Under the pieces are notes generated by a model. The model saw only the letters and a program-made list of their open reading frames with translations, had not been told where the DNA came from and ran no database searches. A program made the translations under genes and the position numbers. A stretch of DNA of 39,365 bases from a virus. Location: the IMG/VR virus record IMGVR_UViG_3300046692_000351, positions 1 to 39,365 of that record; one strand, 5' to 3'. Positions 18,224-23,818 of this stretch are shown here, piece by piece. Every line of letters starts with the position of its first letter. The first letter of the stretch is position 1.

Positions 18224-18427
18224 ACCTTTACATACAACCGGCCAAGACCTTTACATCAGGCAAGGCTCGGCCACCAAACAGGCCAGAAATAGATATTCCG
18301 GCCATCAACCATGTAAAGGTCGACCTTGTCGAAAACCCACCATTTCCGGGACCGACCTTTACAGGAAGTTTACCTTTTCTTTACACGAACCCTCGTTTTC
18401 GACTTTTTGCTCAAACTGTAAAGATAG
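18224..18427. repeat. ACCTTTACAT iteron-like repeats
   Basis: Copies of ACCTTTACA(T) lie at 18224-18233, 18247-18256, 18311-18320 (inverted) and 18355-18363, with a related TTTACA at about 18380 and an inverted TGTAAAGAT at 18418. They fall in gene-free DNA directly upstream of the leftward zinc-ribbon gene. Repeats of this size and density are typical of replication iterons or of multi-site operators. Confidence 0.5.
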
Positions 18428-18485
18428 CTGAGCACTCACCTGACGCTGACAATCGATCACAGCGAGTCACAGACGCGATCCCTGA

Positions 18486-18732
18486 CATAGAGACGATAGA
18501 CAGAACGTCTCGACAAACCGACGCAGTGTATGACGCTCTATGAGAACGACACCAAAAGCGCTGGCCTGCAAAGGGCGAAAACATATTCGAGGTAAAGACG
18601 AGACAGACGCTCATAGATAGGTGACACCTGATCATAGAGAGACAGACCTATAGAGACCGGAACCTCGTAAGACAGTCGGTGCGTATAGAGAGGTGTCAGG
18701 TGCGTGTAGAGGTGAGCGTGTTTGCGTAGAGG
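18486..18732. repeat. Degenerate (C/T)ATAGAG repeats, partly about 21 bp apart
   Basis: CATAGAGA at 18486, CATAGATA at 18612, CATAGAGA at 18633, TATAGAG at 18649, TATAGAGA at 18684, TGTAGAGG at 18705 and CGTAGAGG at 18725, plus one inverted copy near 18536. Several are spaced 20-21 bp, i.e. on one face of the helix. A small perfect palindrome AGGTGACACCT lies at 18619-18629. Open frames here translate to low-complexity repeats and are not credible genes. Confidence 0.45.
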
Positions 18733-19363: not shown

Positions 19364-19416
19364 CCTCGATACTTCCAAGAAGCGTTGTTGTAAAACTTAA
19401 TCATCGAAAGCGAAAC
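19364..19416 (+). promoter_or_regulatory. Class II promoter-like element
   Basis: CCTCGATAC (19364-19372), an 18-bp gap, TAAAAC (19391-19396), then TTAATCATCGAAAGCGAAAC. An 18-base block of it (19399-19416) is repeated exactly on the minus strand at 23310-23293 before the GG-free gene. Confidence 0.65.
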
Positions 19417-19455: not shown

Positions 19456-20367
19456 ATGTCGAAGAAGAACACCGCAAAGTCCGCACCCGCTTCTGCTGCC
19501 GAACTCGTTTCGATGGAAGAATTCTTCAGCCAGGCCGCCGGCGCTGTCGCCGACATGGGCAAAGAGGCTGAAGAGATCGCTGCGGCCGAGCTCGCTGCCC
19601 AGGAAGCCGCACGCCTCGCCGCTGAAGAAGCGGCCAAGAATGCTGCCTCTGAAGAAGGCCAGGAAGGAACCGGCCAGGAGCCGGCCACCAATGAAGATCC
19701 GGCCACCGATGGCGAGCCGACCGCACCCACCAAGCGCGTCGACGGCGTGCTCAAGGAAATGAAGGCTGAGTTCGAGCCGGAAGCGAAGGAAGCCAAGAAG
19801 GTCGAGATCGTCACGTCCTTCGAAGACCGCATCGCCTTCGAGAAGGCCCAGCCGGGTCTGTCCTCGAAGATGGTGCCGAACCTCGAGGCCGAGCAGAAGA
19901 AGATGGCGACCATCGGTGCTGCCGGCCTGTTCCTCGCGATGGACATCGACCCTGGCTTCATCAACCGCGAGGTCTCGACCGGCTCGAGGTTCAACGTCTA
20001 CGCCCTGCAGAAGGTCAACGACCTGATCGTGGCGCTCGACGGCGGGTTCATGCAGAACGCCATCAACAAGGCGATCGTGCAGAGCCTGTTCAACTTCCGC
20101 GACGCCGGCATCCCCTTCACGGGCAACGCAGCGCTCGCTGCCGCATCCGACAAGGTCAAGGCCGACCGGGCGATCACCAAGCACCTCGTTCGCCATACGG
20201 TGAGCGCCAACACCGCCTCGACCCAGAAGAGCAGCACCATGACGGCGCTGAAGACGCTGGGCATCGTCGAGAACACCGGCACGCGCGGCAACGAGGTCTG
20301 GACCTTGACCGACACGCCGGCGACGCGCCGCCTCGAGGAAATCGTCCGCGGTAAGGCTGCAGCCTGA
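19456..20367 (+). CDS. Hypothetical protein, 303 aa, Ala/Glu coiled region plus folded domain
   Basis: Residues 15-100 are low complexity (Ala/Glu-rich helix, then Glu/Pro/Thr-rich linker). Residues about 120-300 form a compact, mostly helical domain with FINREVSTGSRFNVYALQKV and VNDLIVALDGGFMQNAINKA. Its C-terminal end, MTALKTLGIVENTGTRGNEVWTLTD, looks like a winged-helix recognition helix and wing. A DNA-binding or structural role is possible. No family recognised. Single-gene unit with class II promoter and terminator; strong codon bias suggests high expression. Confidence 0.85.
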   Translation: MSKKNTAKSAPASAAELVSMEEFFSQAAGAVADMGKEAEEIAAAELAAQEAARLAAEEAAKNAASEEGQEGTGQEPATNEDPATDGEPTAPTKRVDGVLKEMKAEFEPEAKEAKKVEIVTSFEDRIAFEKAQPGLSSKMVPNLEAEQKKMATIGAAGLFLAMDIDPGFINREVSTGSRFNVYALQKVNDLIVALDGGFMQNAINKAIVQSLFNFRDAGIPFTGNAALAAASDKVKADRAITKHLVRHTVSANTASTQKSSTMTALKTLGIVENTGTRGNEVWTLTDTPATRRLEEIVRGKAAA

Positions 20368-20416: not shown

Positions 20417-20579
20417 TATGGGCTGGATTTAGGGTTCGGGGATGGGGAACGGCAGCTGCCCTAGGGGTCCACCGACAGGATTTTCTGTCGGTTACGGAAC
20501 TGCCCTTGCCCGAGGCCACCCGCGGCGACCCTAGGGCGAGGTTTAGGCCCTCCCCTGCCCCAGGCATACCCTGCCATCA

Positions 20580-21661: not shown

Positions 21662-22000
21662 ATGTCCTACGTCACCGAAGTTTTCATGAACCGTCAGATC
21701 CGCGAAGCCGCTGTCAGCCTCGACATCGTGCAAGCCGCGCAGAACCACAAGCTGCCTGCAGACAGCAAGAAGCACGTCCTGCTCGCCCGTGTCCTGAAGG
21801 ACCACGCCGATCGCCTGCAGCGCCTGGTCGCCGAGCAGACGGTCATGAGCCCTGACGAATTCTTCCGGCGCGCTTTCGATCGTGTCCGCGAGATGCGGGC
21901 TGAAGCTGCACTCATCGCCACCATGCGCCGCGAGAAGCGCGAACGTGACACCCTCGAGCGCGAAACCGTCATGCAGGAGATGGGTCTGATCGCCGCCTGA
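21662..22000 (+). CDS. Hypothetical all-helical protein, 112 aa
   Basis: The sequence is almost wholly helical, with long amphipathic segments (residues about 28-65 and 70-108, e.g. HVLLARVLKDHADRLQRLVA and FFRRAFDRVREMRAEAALIA). It is rich in Arg and Glu and ends in a coiled-coil-like REKRERDTLERETVMQEM. It has no Gly until residue 109. Possibly an oligomeric or RNA/DNA-binding helix bundle. Weak class II traces (CTAGAAACT...CAGCAACGCC) precede it; a clean terminator follows. Confidence 0.8.
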   Translation: MSYVTEVFMNRQIREAAVSLDIVQAAQNHKLPADSKKHVLLARVLKDHADRLQRLVAEQTVMSPDEFFRRAFDRVREMRAEAALIATMRREKRERDTLERETVMQEMGLIAA

Positions 22001-22014
22001 CACGCCTAGAGACG

Positions 22015-22043
22015 ACCGCAGCTCTCACGGGCTGCGGTTTTGT
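22015..22043 (+). terminator. Intrinsic terminator
   Basis: ACCGCAGC/GCTGCGGT stem with an 8-nt loop, then TTTGTC, 15 bp after the stop. Confidence 0.85.
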
Positions 22044-22410
22044 CTGGGCTTGGGTGTGCCCTAGGGGCAAGGGCACGGATTTGGGGAACGGCAGCGCGCC
22101 TAGGGATCCGCGGTCAGGAACGGGGCGACAGGGGAACGGGTATAGGGGTAGGTCGCCCCTAGGTGTGCCCATGGGTGCGGGCGCGCCTCCCTGCCCGCGT
22201 GCGCCCTCGCGCCTATGCGCCTGCGCCCCGCTTGCGCGTGCGTGACGCGCAAATGACTGCTCGATATCGAGCGCGATAGCGTCTGGTCGACTCACAGAGA
22301 GTCACTGGCTGGCTTGGGTGCGTTCTGTGAGTCATTGCTCATCTCAGCATGACAAACGCGCTGTATGAGCTTCTATAGCGCTGCCCGTTTTTCGACATGA
22401 GCGCAAACGC
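22044..22410. other. Gene-free spacer, 370 bp
   Basis: The first 200 bp is GC-rich with three CCTAGG sites and a GGGGAACGGCAGC block also found at about 20443. After about 22240 the base composition changes abruptly and GACTCACAGAGAGTCAC (22289-22305) and a second GAGTCA (22329) appear, resembling a GAGTCACAGA at 18464. No credible gene. Confidence 0.4.
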
Positions 22411-22437
22411 AAAAAGCGCTCTTTCGAGCGCTCTTTT
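22411..22437 (-). terminator. Bidirectional terminator
   Basis: AGCGCTC-TTTC-GAGCGCT hairpin flanked by AAAA on the left and TTTT on the right. On the leftward strand the stem is followed by TTTTTG, 22 bp past the end of the 34-aa gene. Confidence 0.85.
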
Positions 22438-22458
22438 GTTTCGTATTTTCGAATGTTC

Positions 22459-22563
22459 TTAAAAGCATTTCAGGTAGACGATTGCTCCGATCGCTAAAGC
22501 GTAACAGGTGCTGTTAGCGATAAGCAGGATCTTGAATTCGATAGTCCTCATATATGCGCGCAT
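22459..22563 (-). CDS. 34-aa small membrane peptide
   Basis: Leftward frame from ATG 22563 to TAA 22459: MRAYMRTIEFK followed by a hydrophobic stretch to CF at the end. It sits exactly between a class I palindrome 12 bp upstream and an intrinsic terminator downstream, and is preceded by GAGAGAAC, the same unusual GG-free ribosome-binding sequence used by the 22636-23235 gene. The unit architecture is the main evidence that it is expressed. Confidence 0.55.
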   Translation of the reverse strand: MRAYMRTIEFKILLIANSTCYALAIGAIVYLKCF

Positions 22564-22574
22564 CGTTCTCTCAT

Positions 22575-22590
22575 ATGTAAGCGCTTACTT
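22575..22590 (-). promoter_or_regulatory. Class I operator palindrome
   Basis: ATGTAA-GCGC-TTACTT with the longer GTAAGCGCTTAC fully palindromic. One arm deviates (ATGTAA). Oriented to serve the 34-aa leftward gene. Confidence 0.55.
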
Positions 22591-22594
22591 ATGT

Positions 22595-22620
22595 GAGAGT
22601 GCGCTATTATGCGCACTCTC
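22595..22620 (-). terminator. Perfect 10-bp hairpin after the GG-free gene
   Basis: GAGAGTGCGC-TATTAT-GCGCACTCTC, 16 bp past the leftward stop at 22636. There is no U run on either strand, so it may act as a 3' stabilising hairpin. Confidence 0.55.
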
Positions 22621-22635
22621 TGCTTTAGCTACTGC

Positions 22636-23235
22636 TTATGCAGCTTCTTGTTCGTTCTCTTCGCTTTCGTCTTCGATTTCGACTTTCGCAAAGTCGATCT
22701 TGAACGCTACGCAAAGCGCTTCTGCGAGTGCTGTTAGGTCGACGCTGAAAGCGTTCTTGATATCGTGACGATGCTTGATGATATTCAGCGTCAGGAGCGC
22801 GTCTCTGCTCGTCTGTGACTGCGCAGCGATCGTTTCAGTGGTCTGAATGAGATTGCGCACATAGACGAGGTGCTTGACGCTGTCGTCAACTGTCACGTCT
22901 CGCGAGATAGACGCTTCAATCATCGCTTGTGTCAGAACAACGTCATGACGGTAGCAGTTGATCGCGGTGCGAAAGATCGCATAGGTGTTTTCGTTCAGGT
23001 CTTTCGCGTTCAGCGTGACAGCTTGAGACGCGAACTTGACGACTTTCTCACATGCATACATCGCTCTGGTGAAGCGCTCTGCGTCGACGTTGGCGTCTGT
23101 CAGCATGTCAGCAAGCTTTTCGTTAGAAAGCATAGTAACGAGCTTGCGAAGCTTCTTCTCATTCGAAGCGCTGCAGTTGTTCAGAAGAGCAGAGTTAAGA
23201 CGTTCAGACATTGCGACTGCGAAGACGTTAGACAT
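22636..23235 (-). CDS. 199-aa protein with no Gly, Pro or Trp; GG-free mRNA
   Basis: Leftward ORF from ATG 23235 to TAA 22636. Its 199 residues contain no glycine, no proline and no tryptophan, because the coding strand has no GG dinucleotide and no in-frame CCN. It reads as mostly helical: an N-terminal helical region (SNEKKLRKLVTMLSNEKLAD), a middle (EKVVKFASQAVTLNAKDLNE), a segment rich in Ser/Thr/Gln (TIAAQSQTSRDALLTLNIIK) and an acidic tail (EIEDESEENEQEAA). The ribosome-binding sequence is AAGAGAGAAC instead of a GGAGG type. A class II promoter with an 18-base block identical to the 19399 copy lies upstream (23293-23340), so it is probably early. It has the even, long-ORF look of a real gene; function unknown. 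Confidence 0.85.
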   Translation of the reverse strand: MSNVFAVAMSERLNSALLNNCSASNEKKLRKLVTMLSNEKLADMLTDANVDAERFTRAMYACEKVVKFASQAVTLNAKDLNENTYAIFRTAINCYRHDVVLTQAMIEASISRDVTVDDSVKHLVYVRNLIQTTETIAAQSQTSRDALLTLNIIKHRHDIKNAFSVDLTALAEALCVAFKIDFAKVEIEDESEENEQEAA

Positions 23236-23292
23236 AGTGTTCTCTCTTTCGTGTAGAACGTTGCGTTAGTCGAAAGCGTTGCTGATTTGTTT

Positions 23293-23340
23293 GTTTCGCT
23301 TTCGATGATTTGACTTTATCGAAGTCTTAGATTGGTTCAA
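23293..23340 (-). promoter_or_regulatory. Class II promoter on the minus strand
   Basis: Minus-strand TTGAAC (23340-23335), 16 bp, TAAAGT (23318-23313), then AATCATCGAAAGCGAAAC (23310-23293), the last being an exact 18-base copy of 19399-19416. It lies about 60-105 bp before ATG 23235. Confidence 0.65.
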
Positions 23341-23398
23341 TCGAACTGATGGGGATGCCTTCCGCACTGGCGACGCTCCGGTGAACCTATCCTCCTCA

Positions 23399-23578: not shown

Positions 23579-23654
23579 CGCGGGGTAGCTCAGTTGGGAG
23601 AGCGCTGGACTCATAATCCAGAGGTCGTCGGTTCAAGTCCGATCCCCGCAACCA
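23579..23654 (+). tRNA. tRNA-Met (anticodon CAT), initiator-like C1-A72 mismatch
   Basis: A 76-nt cloverleaf: acceptor CGCGGGG/CCCCGCA, TA, D stem GCTC/GAGC, anticodon stem CTGGA/TCCAG around CTCATAA, T stem GTCGG/CCGAT, discriminator A and an encoded CCA. Position 1 (C) cannot pair with position 72 (A); this mismatch is the hallmark of bacterial initiator tRNA. The D arm, in contrast, is of the elongator type and the anticodon stem has GGA/TCC instead of GGG/CCC. A CAT anticodon could also be read as tRNA-Ile2 after lysidine modification. Class I promoter upstream. Confidence 0.9.
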
Positions 23655-23658
23655 GCAT

Positions 23659-23734
23659 TGGAGTGTAGCTCAGTCGGTAGAGCAGGTGACTGTTAATCAC
23701 CGGGTCGCAGGTTCGAGTCCTGCCTCTCCAGCCA
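23659..23734 (+). tRNA. tRNA-Asn (anticodon GTT)
   Basis: A 76-nt cloverleaf with D stem GCTC/GAGC, anticodon stem GGTGA/TCACC around CTGTTAA, T stem GCAGG/CCTGC, discriminator G and encoded CCA. The acceptor TGGAGTG/CTCTCCA has a T-T mismatch at position 6-67. Four bases after tRNA-Met, so processed from the same precursor. Confidence 0.95.
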
Positions 23735-23744
23735 GTTTCAACGT

Positions 23745-23818
23745 GGGTGTGTAGCTCAATGGTAGAGCAGCGGTCTCCAAAACCAAAGACGAGGGTTCGA
23801 TTCCTTACTCACCCGCCA
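23745..23818 (+). tRNA. tRNA-Trp (anticodon CCA), structurally weak
   Basis: A 74-nt cloverleaf with loop CTCCAAA, discriminator G and encoded CCA. The acceptor GGGTGTG/CTCACCC again has T-T at 6-67; the anticodon stem GCGGT/ACCAA keeps only three pairs, and the T stem GAGGG/CCTTA has a G-A mismatch. It may be decaying or need host-specific tolerance. Confidence 0.85.

Follow-up and report, generated by a model that had tools for sequence, protein, structure and literature searches.

A GG- and CC-purged transcription unit and its ordinary paralogue in alphaproteobacterial phage-plasmids and prophages

Introduction

Why should one gene of a virus, together with its leader and ribosome-binding site, be written without two adjacent G residues? 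The question arises from a 39-kb virus record (39,365 nt, analysed over its whole length and referred to here as the window), in which a transcription unit read leftward, on the minus strand, had been predicted from its letters to lack GG over 810 nt where about 40 would be expected, and to encode a protein of 199 amino acids without Gly, Pro or Trp. The original prediction also placed the leader and the ribosome-binding site (RBS) inside the avoidance, held that selection acts on nucleotides, and offered several possible causes. Here we describe this gene, designated B, its homologues and an ordinary paralogue, designated A. The observation holds and extends beyond its first description: a ban on CC, the ordinary paralogue and conservation of the ban across the family are all additional.

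Results

The plus strand of the window has no CC over exactly 810 nt (Table 1), and the leftward strand is therefore free of GG over the same distance; elsewhere in the window no run without CC is longer than about 154 nt. The C frequency of the tract itself predicts 40.4 CC, and the probability of finding none is 7e-16. Among 200 copies of the window generated with a second-order Markov model, the longest CC-free stretch averaged 113 nt and never exceeded 220 nt. The leftward open reading frame (ORF) encodes 199 residues with zero Gly, Pro and Trp. Synonymous recoding of B with phage codon usage (20,000 draws) gave a mean of 20.9 GG and a minimum of 10, so the loss of GG in B is not due to missing Gly and Trp. 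CC is scarce in the B mRNA as well, with 10 in the window against 37 expected and 0 in most relatives. Removal of both dinucleotides from the unit leaves the encoded proteins nearly without glycine, proline and tryptophan. The length of the tract, the composition of the protein and the inclusion of the leader and of the RBS GAAAGAGAG in the avoidance were thus correctly predicted, and neither the Markov nor the synonymous-codon null ever reproduced the tract.

A further GG-free tract of 197 nt (18366-18562), proposed as possibly related, does exist; it is non-coding, contains CC and lies beside CCTTTACA repeats, and its kinship with the B unit found no support. The repeat CCTTTACA occurs four times, in direct and inverted orientation, in the non-coding stretch 18225-18363 (0.36 expected) and may be iteron- or operator-like.

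Table 1. Features of the B unit, its paralogue and its convergent neighbour, with positions in the window.
Feature	Position	Strand	Remarks
A gene, 303 aa, normal Gly, Pro and GG	19456..20367	+	Ordinary paralogue of B
Unit 2, 112 aa, convergent neighbour of B	21662..22000	+	9 GG (18.3 expected), normal CC
Intergenic block rich in GG and CC that separates the convergent units	22027..22229	.	Sequence
Terminator-like hairpin AGCGCTCGAAAGAGCGCT with GC/CG steps, distal end of unit	22415..22432	-	T-tailed on the plus strand too
GG-free tract of leftward transcription unit	22548..23357	-	Plus strand without CC, 810 nt
Palindrome GTAAGCGCTTAC within unit	22577..22588	.	Single or double copy in relatives
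GG/CC-free hairpin GAGAGTGCGC-ATAATA-GCGCACTCTC behind B gene	22595..22620	-	Sequence
B gene, 199 aa; Gly, Pro and Trp absent	22636..23235	-	Sense strand 0 GG, 10 CC; homologues in 27 phages/prophages
GG-free RBS GAAAGAGAG	23242..23250	-	Sequence, alignment
Putative core promoter TTGAAC-16-TAAAGT	23313..23340	-	Read by eye; consensus scan did not return it
Regulatory element TCTAAGACTTCGATA at upstream edge of tract	23317..23331	-	Conserved in most relatives
Invariant block GGAAGGCATCCCCATC just upstream of tract	23348..23363	-	Alignment of 11 relatives; carries last GG before tract

The close relatives of the window are Rhizobium and Sinorhizobium phage-plasmids of 117-122 kb with ParA, ParB-like and RepC genes (PMC12509600, PMC5537653). 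They comprise V1VFA-S, B1VFA, RHph_X66, the plasmids pLM21S1 and pRlX6, and IMG/VR contigs. We gathered 27 homologues of B from alphaproteobacterial phage-plasmids and prophages. GG is nearly absent from 26 of the 27, and ordinary Gly and GG contents, which would count against the original prediction, are not what the homologues show. Pooled over the 27 genes, 22 GG were observed against 580 expected under synonymous recoding, and 110 CC against 1012, a ban almost as strict as that on GG. Seventeen of the 22 residual GG sit in L169 alone, a lineage of 67% GC in which the ban has been lost. The L169 B gene (2033-2641) holds 17 GG and 49 CC, yet its protein has just 2 Gly and 1 Pro; this low content is a footprint of the earlier constraint. 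With L169 set aside, 5 GG and 61 CC remain, although the null makes CC only 1.75 times commoner than GG (nominal P 1e-7, ignoring shared ancestry). Within the ORF, CC has been regained in the window copy (10) and in L004 (28), where GG numbers 0 and 2, respectively. The B ORF of RHEph10 runs against this excess of CC over GG, with 1 GG and 0 CC.

The locus is unique in the complete genome of V1VFA-S (59% GC), where the longest stretch without GG and CC measures 1277 nt and the next 72 nt; in Markov copies such stretches reached at most 102 nt. Outside the tract there are 8054 GG and 8330 CC, and about 1.3 of 118 kb (~1%) is purged. Across the carriers, which are mostly GC-rich (49-67% GC) and deeply divergent from one another, the ban covers 0.6-1.7 kb.

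DNA motif scans returned mostly unrelated contigs and one new member, L074. A search of the genome contigs with the B profile gave no match, and one with the A profile added Faunimonas and Methylocystis. A GG-free stretch of 448 nt in L043 (69% GC) was considered as a member and dismissed as a simple tandem repeat. Annotation of the genes varies: in RHEph10 (JX483881), B is annotated on the wrong strand, as the antisense ORF gp148 (99198-99761, minus), and A lies at 96333-96941 on the plus strand, apparently in another frame than the annotated gp142. In the plasmid prophage L013 (pRlX6, NZ_CP140813), the B gene carries an early one-base frameshift and the annotated coding sequence starts elsewhere; either this is a sequencing error or B is dispensable in the plasmid state.

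The small ORFs that follow B differ by lineage, range from 51 to 231 aa and mostly have no detectable similarity to one another. Among the 13 that we compared, none encodes Gly or Trp and two encode Pro. Leaders, ribosome-binding sites, spacers and out-of-frame positions also obey the ban. As leaders, spacers and unrelated small ORFs are all covered, the ban acts on nucleotides, in agreement with the original prediction. In cases where neither dinucleotide could arise from the choice of codon, codon usage in B is near that of the genome, with a mild shift towards A/T. The replacement codons comprise GCG, GCA and GCT in about equal numbers for Ala, and ACA and ACG for Thr; two-fold C/T sites have near-genome values, and the most enriched base in the purged tract is A, not T. 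Compared with codon-permuted or dinucleotide-shuffled versions, the real messages show equal or better folding, and the idea that the RNA is simply kept unstructured was rejected.

Paralogy between A and B was detected at the level of sequence, profile and phylogeny. A blastp search with L074 B matched window A (E=5e-13) and window B (2e-6), and hhalign comparison of the B and A profiles gave E=1e-5 to 1e-8. A was found in every B-carrying genome examined. The A-profile search gave 22 loci; in 21 of them a purged tract lies no more than a few kb from A, and the remaining one, L169, has a B gene that has lost the ban. In a tree of 49 sequences, a single branch separates the A and B clades (100/100 support, 100% of 200 bootstraps), with long branches within B. 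B is an anciently duplicated, GG-purged paralogue of A; the two split once, and the ban follows B. Identical 18-nt strings, AATCATCGAAAGCGAAAC, are present in the window in the leaders of A (19399-19416) and B (23293-23310), and the duplication therefore seemingly took in the leader. Where A has Gly, B frequently has Asn, Asp, Lys or Glu.

A is modelled, with fair confidence (pLDDT 82.7), as a helical domain and a C-terminal winged-helix-like part; the AlphaFold model of window B alone was unusable (pLDDT 48). Foldseek matched part of A weakly to ArsR-type repressors (E ~0.2, prob ~0.8) and found no convincing PDB match for its long helical N-terminal part. The best viral fold match of A is A0A7S5RLS2 (E=4.7e-7), whose 188 aa equal the length of B in the RHEph10 group. 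No significant sequence family match for A was found in Pfam or PHROGs, and sequence searches with B in Pfam, PHROGs and PDB gave nothing convincing beyond a weak hit to PHROG 32000 (E 0.0018), which has no assigned function. With structural matches this weak, DNA binding by A or B is putative.

Promoters and terminators of the B units were predicted from sequence alone. The RBS is GAAAG-like and could presumably pair with CUUUC at the 3′ end of 16S rRNA. In an alignment of 11 relatives, GGAAGGCATCCCCATC, whose first letters vary slightly, is followed by about 18 variable letters and then by TCTAAGACTTCGATA. The GG ban starts within or right after GGAAGGCATCCCCATC, and the CC ban at the letters preceding TCTAAGACTTCGATA; in L171, the last CC lies directly upstream of the putative -10 box. 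The G001 unit runs for 1.6 kb from the promoter element across three ORFs with one GG and zero CC, and its ban stops about 30 nt past a T-tailed hairpin. Two cases depart from a pure transcript rule. In V1VFA-S and pLM21S1, the terminator-like hairpin is followed by about 200 nt more of purged sequence; in the RHEph10 group, purging seems to begin upstream of the likely core promoter.

Several neighbouring features were recorded in the window. The distal, unpurged part of the unit contains a possible ORF for a 30-aa membrane peptide after B (22457-22549, minus). A tRNA cluster (Met-CAT, Asn-GTT, Trp-CCA; 23579-23818) adjoins the B promoter, its third member being annotated as pseudo-CCA in relatives. 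A GG-rich intergenic repeat of 50 nt occurs at 20431-20480 and 22070-22119 (76% identical), one copy lying between the convergent units.

Unit 2, which converges on B, carries a bias of its own. In L002, L003 and pLM21S1 it has 2 GG against 15-18 expected (0 of 5000 shuffles) with normal CC, and the depletion is relaxed in the Rhizobium lineage. A 101-aa ORF in L170 has 0 GG against 9.7 expected, and 30 CC. Sense-strand GG is avoided in both convergent units and CC solely in the B unit, and the ban is strictest for sense-strand GG. Because unit 2 is short of GG on the strand that encodes it while its CC count is normal, the pattern points to RNA or to the non-template strand. With the convergent neighbour GG-depleted on its own sense strand, the strand-specific packaging or priming rule that had been put forward was not upheld.

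Profile searches for PIN and PemK/MazF families, with positive controls, found none in seven phage genomes. Pfam scans of most non-structural V1VFA-S proteins showed no MazF/PemK or PIN/VapC among the families listed (25 of 30 in one scan). The RegB profile PF10715 was silent in the seven genomes, and its controls were equally silent. An RtcB RNA ligase is encoded in 11 of 16 genomes, and a separate RNA-ligase match occurs in a few more; some of the latter are probably DNA ligases. V1VFA-S (MT778838; L010-L012) has a set of anti-defence and repair genes, which encode Tad2-like and Acb2/Tad1 domains, RtcB, an RNA ligase, NadM, a nicotinamide phosphoribosyltransferase and a protein annotated as (p)ppGpp synthetase/hydrolase. 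RtcB, RNA ligase and Tad1/Tad2-like domains would suit phages facing RNA damage and nucleotide-signal defences; they name no agent.

Discussion

We tentatively favour the view that the B message is kept free of the targets of a GG-directed (and CC-directed) activity that disables ordinary messages, with B replacing A, and give it a substantial chance, somewhat short of even. In this scheme, whose RNA level, agent, timing and replacement step we infer, an RNA activity recognising GG, and for the B unit also CC, would operate during some phase of infection or lysogeny. It would cut, bind or block ordinary messages, either as a host defence or as the phage's own shut-off. The B message, with no target site even in its RBS, would continue to be translated; A's message would be lost, and the role of A, a putative DNA-binding protein, would pass to its relative B.

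Speaking for action on RNA are the pooled deficit of GG and CC, the coverage of leaders, ribosome-binding sites, spacers and some ten dissimilar small ORFs, the edges of the G001 unit and the start in L171. To these are added the loss of sense-strand GG in unit 2 and the L170 ORF, the excess of residual CC over GG, the way the ban tracks B, and near-normal usage of the other codons. RtcB and RNA-ligase genes fit RNA damage as a recurrent stress; against this, RNA-repair genes are commonly carried by large phages. Also against the RNA reading, a GG-specific RNase alone leaves the CC ban unexplained, and purging overhangs the hairpin in V1VFA-S and pLM21S1 and precedes the promoter in the RHEph10 group. 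A GG-directed RNase, one of the causes originally listed, comes near this reading, but PIN and PemK/MazF searches of seven genomes yielded no such agent.

The main rival places the ban on DNA. A protein binding GG/CC, perhaps A itself or a nucleoid-type silencer, would coat and silence the DNA, while the B unit, encoding a countering paralogue, would lack its sites and always be transcribable. This would account for the joint absence of GG and CC, for the purged DNA upstream of promoters and behind terminators, and for B being a paralogue of A, which is modelled with a C-terminal winged-helix-like part (its PDB matches being weak). It thus does better than the RNA reading on CC and the overhangs, but worse on the strand-specific loss of GG from unit 2, which, like the L170 ORF, is short of sense-strand GG only. 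Residual CC, moreover, greatly exceed GG, and we know of no two-letter DNA-binding specificity this strict; on balance we consider this explanation unlikely, though a serious contender. Less probable again is escape at transcription elongation, with a factor that halts RNA polymerase wherever the non-template strand or the nascent transcript contains GG and leaves B as the sole readable unit. Its strand preference would be that of the RNA reading, and the CC ban of L171 does begin at the putative core promoter, with that of other lineages beginning near it, but the CC ban itself stays unexplained, no such factor came to light and unit 2 is relaxed in the Rhizobium lineage. Alc and Nun, which stop RNA polymerase, do so by other cues.

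The remaining explanations run into the details of the purge. A deaminase-like activity on transcribed CC/GG could continually erase them and make selection unnecessary; it would treat both strands, coding and non-coding, alike, and the frequent replacement of A's Gly by Asn, Asp, Lys or Glu in B is in keeping with it. However, the Ala, Thr and two-fold replacement codons are not C-to-T products, A rather than T is the most enriched base, and no deaminase is known to us in these phages, so that we hold targeted mutation to be very improbable. The avoidance of internal Shine-Dalgarno-like sites in a very highly translated early gene, suggested originally, can point to GG as the core of such sites and to the alternative GAAAG type of RBS. 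It fits poorly, because the unit's own RBS and CC are purged too, as are the 3′ spacers, and GG is only mildly depleted in the capsid gene and other genes of the phage; we see little prospect for it. Slimmer still are the prospects of avoiding an NGG PAM or a restriction/modification site, another of the initial proposals. Loss of GG from both strands would indeed remove every NGG PAM in the tract, but since the purge takes up no more than some 1% of the genome (~1.3 of 118 kb), this does not fit: the motif is present throughout V1VFA-S, cutting elsewhere would still kill, and unit 2 is depleted on a single strand. Helical proteins can do without Gly and Pro, yet chance, or a protein simply needing no Gly, Pro or Trp, has a negligible probability in view of the tract statistics (P = 7e-16), the Markov and synonymous nulls, 26 of 27 homologues, the non-coding parts and the unrelated ORFs.

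Returning to the favoured action on RNA, a bolder form of it can be imagined. Messages would be shut off almost globally by mere GG (and CC), under host or phage control, and one 'licensed' unit without those letters, carrying a rewritten putative DNA-binding protein, would be expressed throughout. Such a two-letter code for self and non-self mRNA has a fair chance, though one well short of even.

Whatever it is, an agent acting on GG/CC must have policed the B unit for a very long time. A dinucleotide ban held through deep divergence and laid upon nearly all ORFs of the unit implies a so far unrecognised activity that reads pairs of adjacent letters very strictly, and its discovery would reveal a new host defence, a new mechanism of phage take-over or a new rule of RNA handling. 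In B, the members of a protein family have been recast with Gly, Pro and Trp left out, and the pair of A and B, one ordinary and one purged, supplies its own control and brings the question within reach of one infection experiment.

Literature searches for a dinucleotide-purged unit returned no relevant precedent; such a unit seems to be undescribed. The phage-plasmids pLM21S1, B1VFA, V1VFA-S and RHEph10 are carriers of it, and the available text of their descriptions contains no mention of a purged unit (PMC5537653, PMC12509600). Part of A resembles ArsR-type winged-helix repressors weakly by Foldseek, whereas A as a whole has no significant Pfam or PHROGs match and its N-terminal helices no convincing PDB match. 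Phages may also lack, or have few, sites for restriction enzymes, CRISPR PAMs or toxin RNases. This is similar in that selection removes a short motif; it differs in affecting whole genomes and longer motifs, where the present case concerns a dinucleotide, in one unit, with an ordinary paralogue nearby. T4 RegB cuts GGAG in early mRNAs, mostly at Shine-Dalgarno sites, and needs context and structure (PMC3014915). There, too, a short GG-containing motif decides the fate of phage messages, and some messages are resistant; the target of RegB is GGAG, while the B unit is without nearly every GG and CC throughout. In kind, T4 RegB is the nearest precedent.
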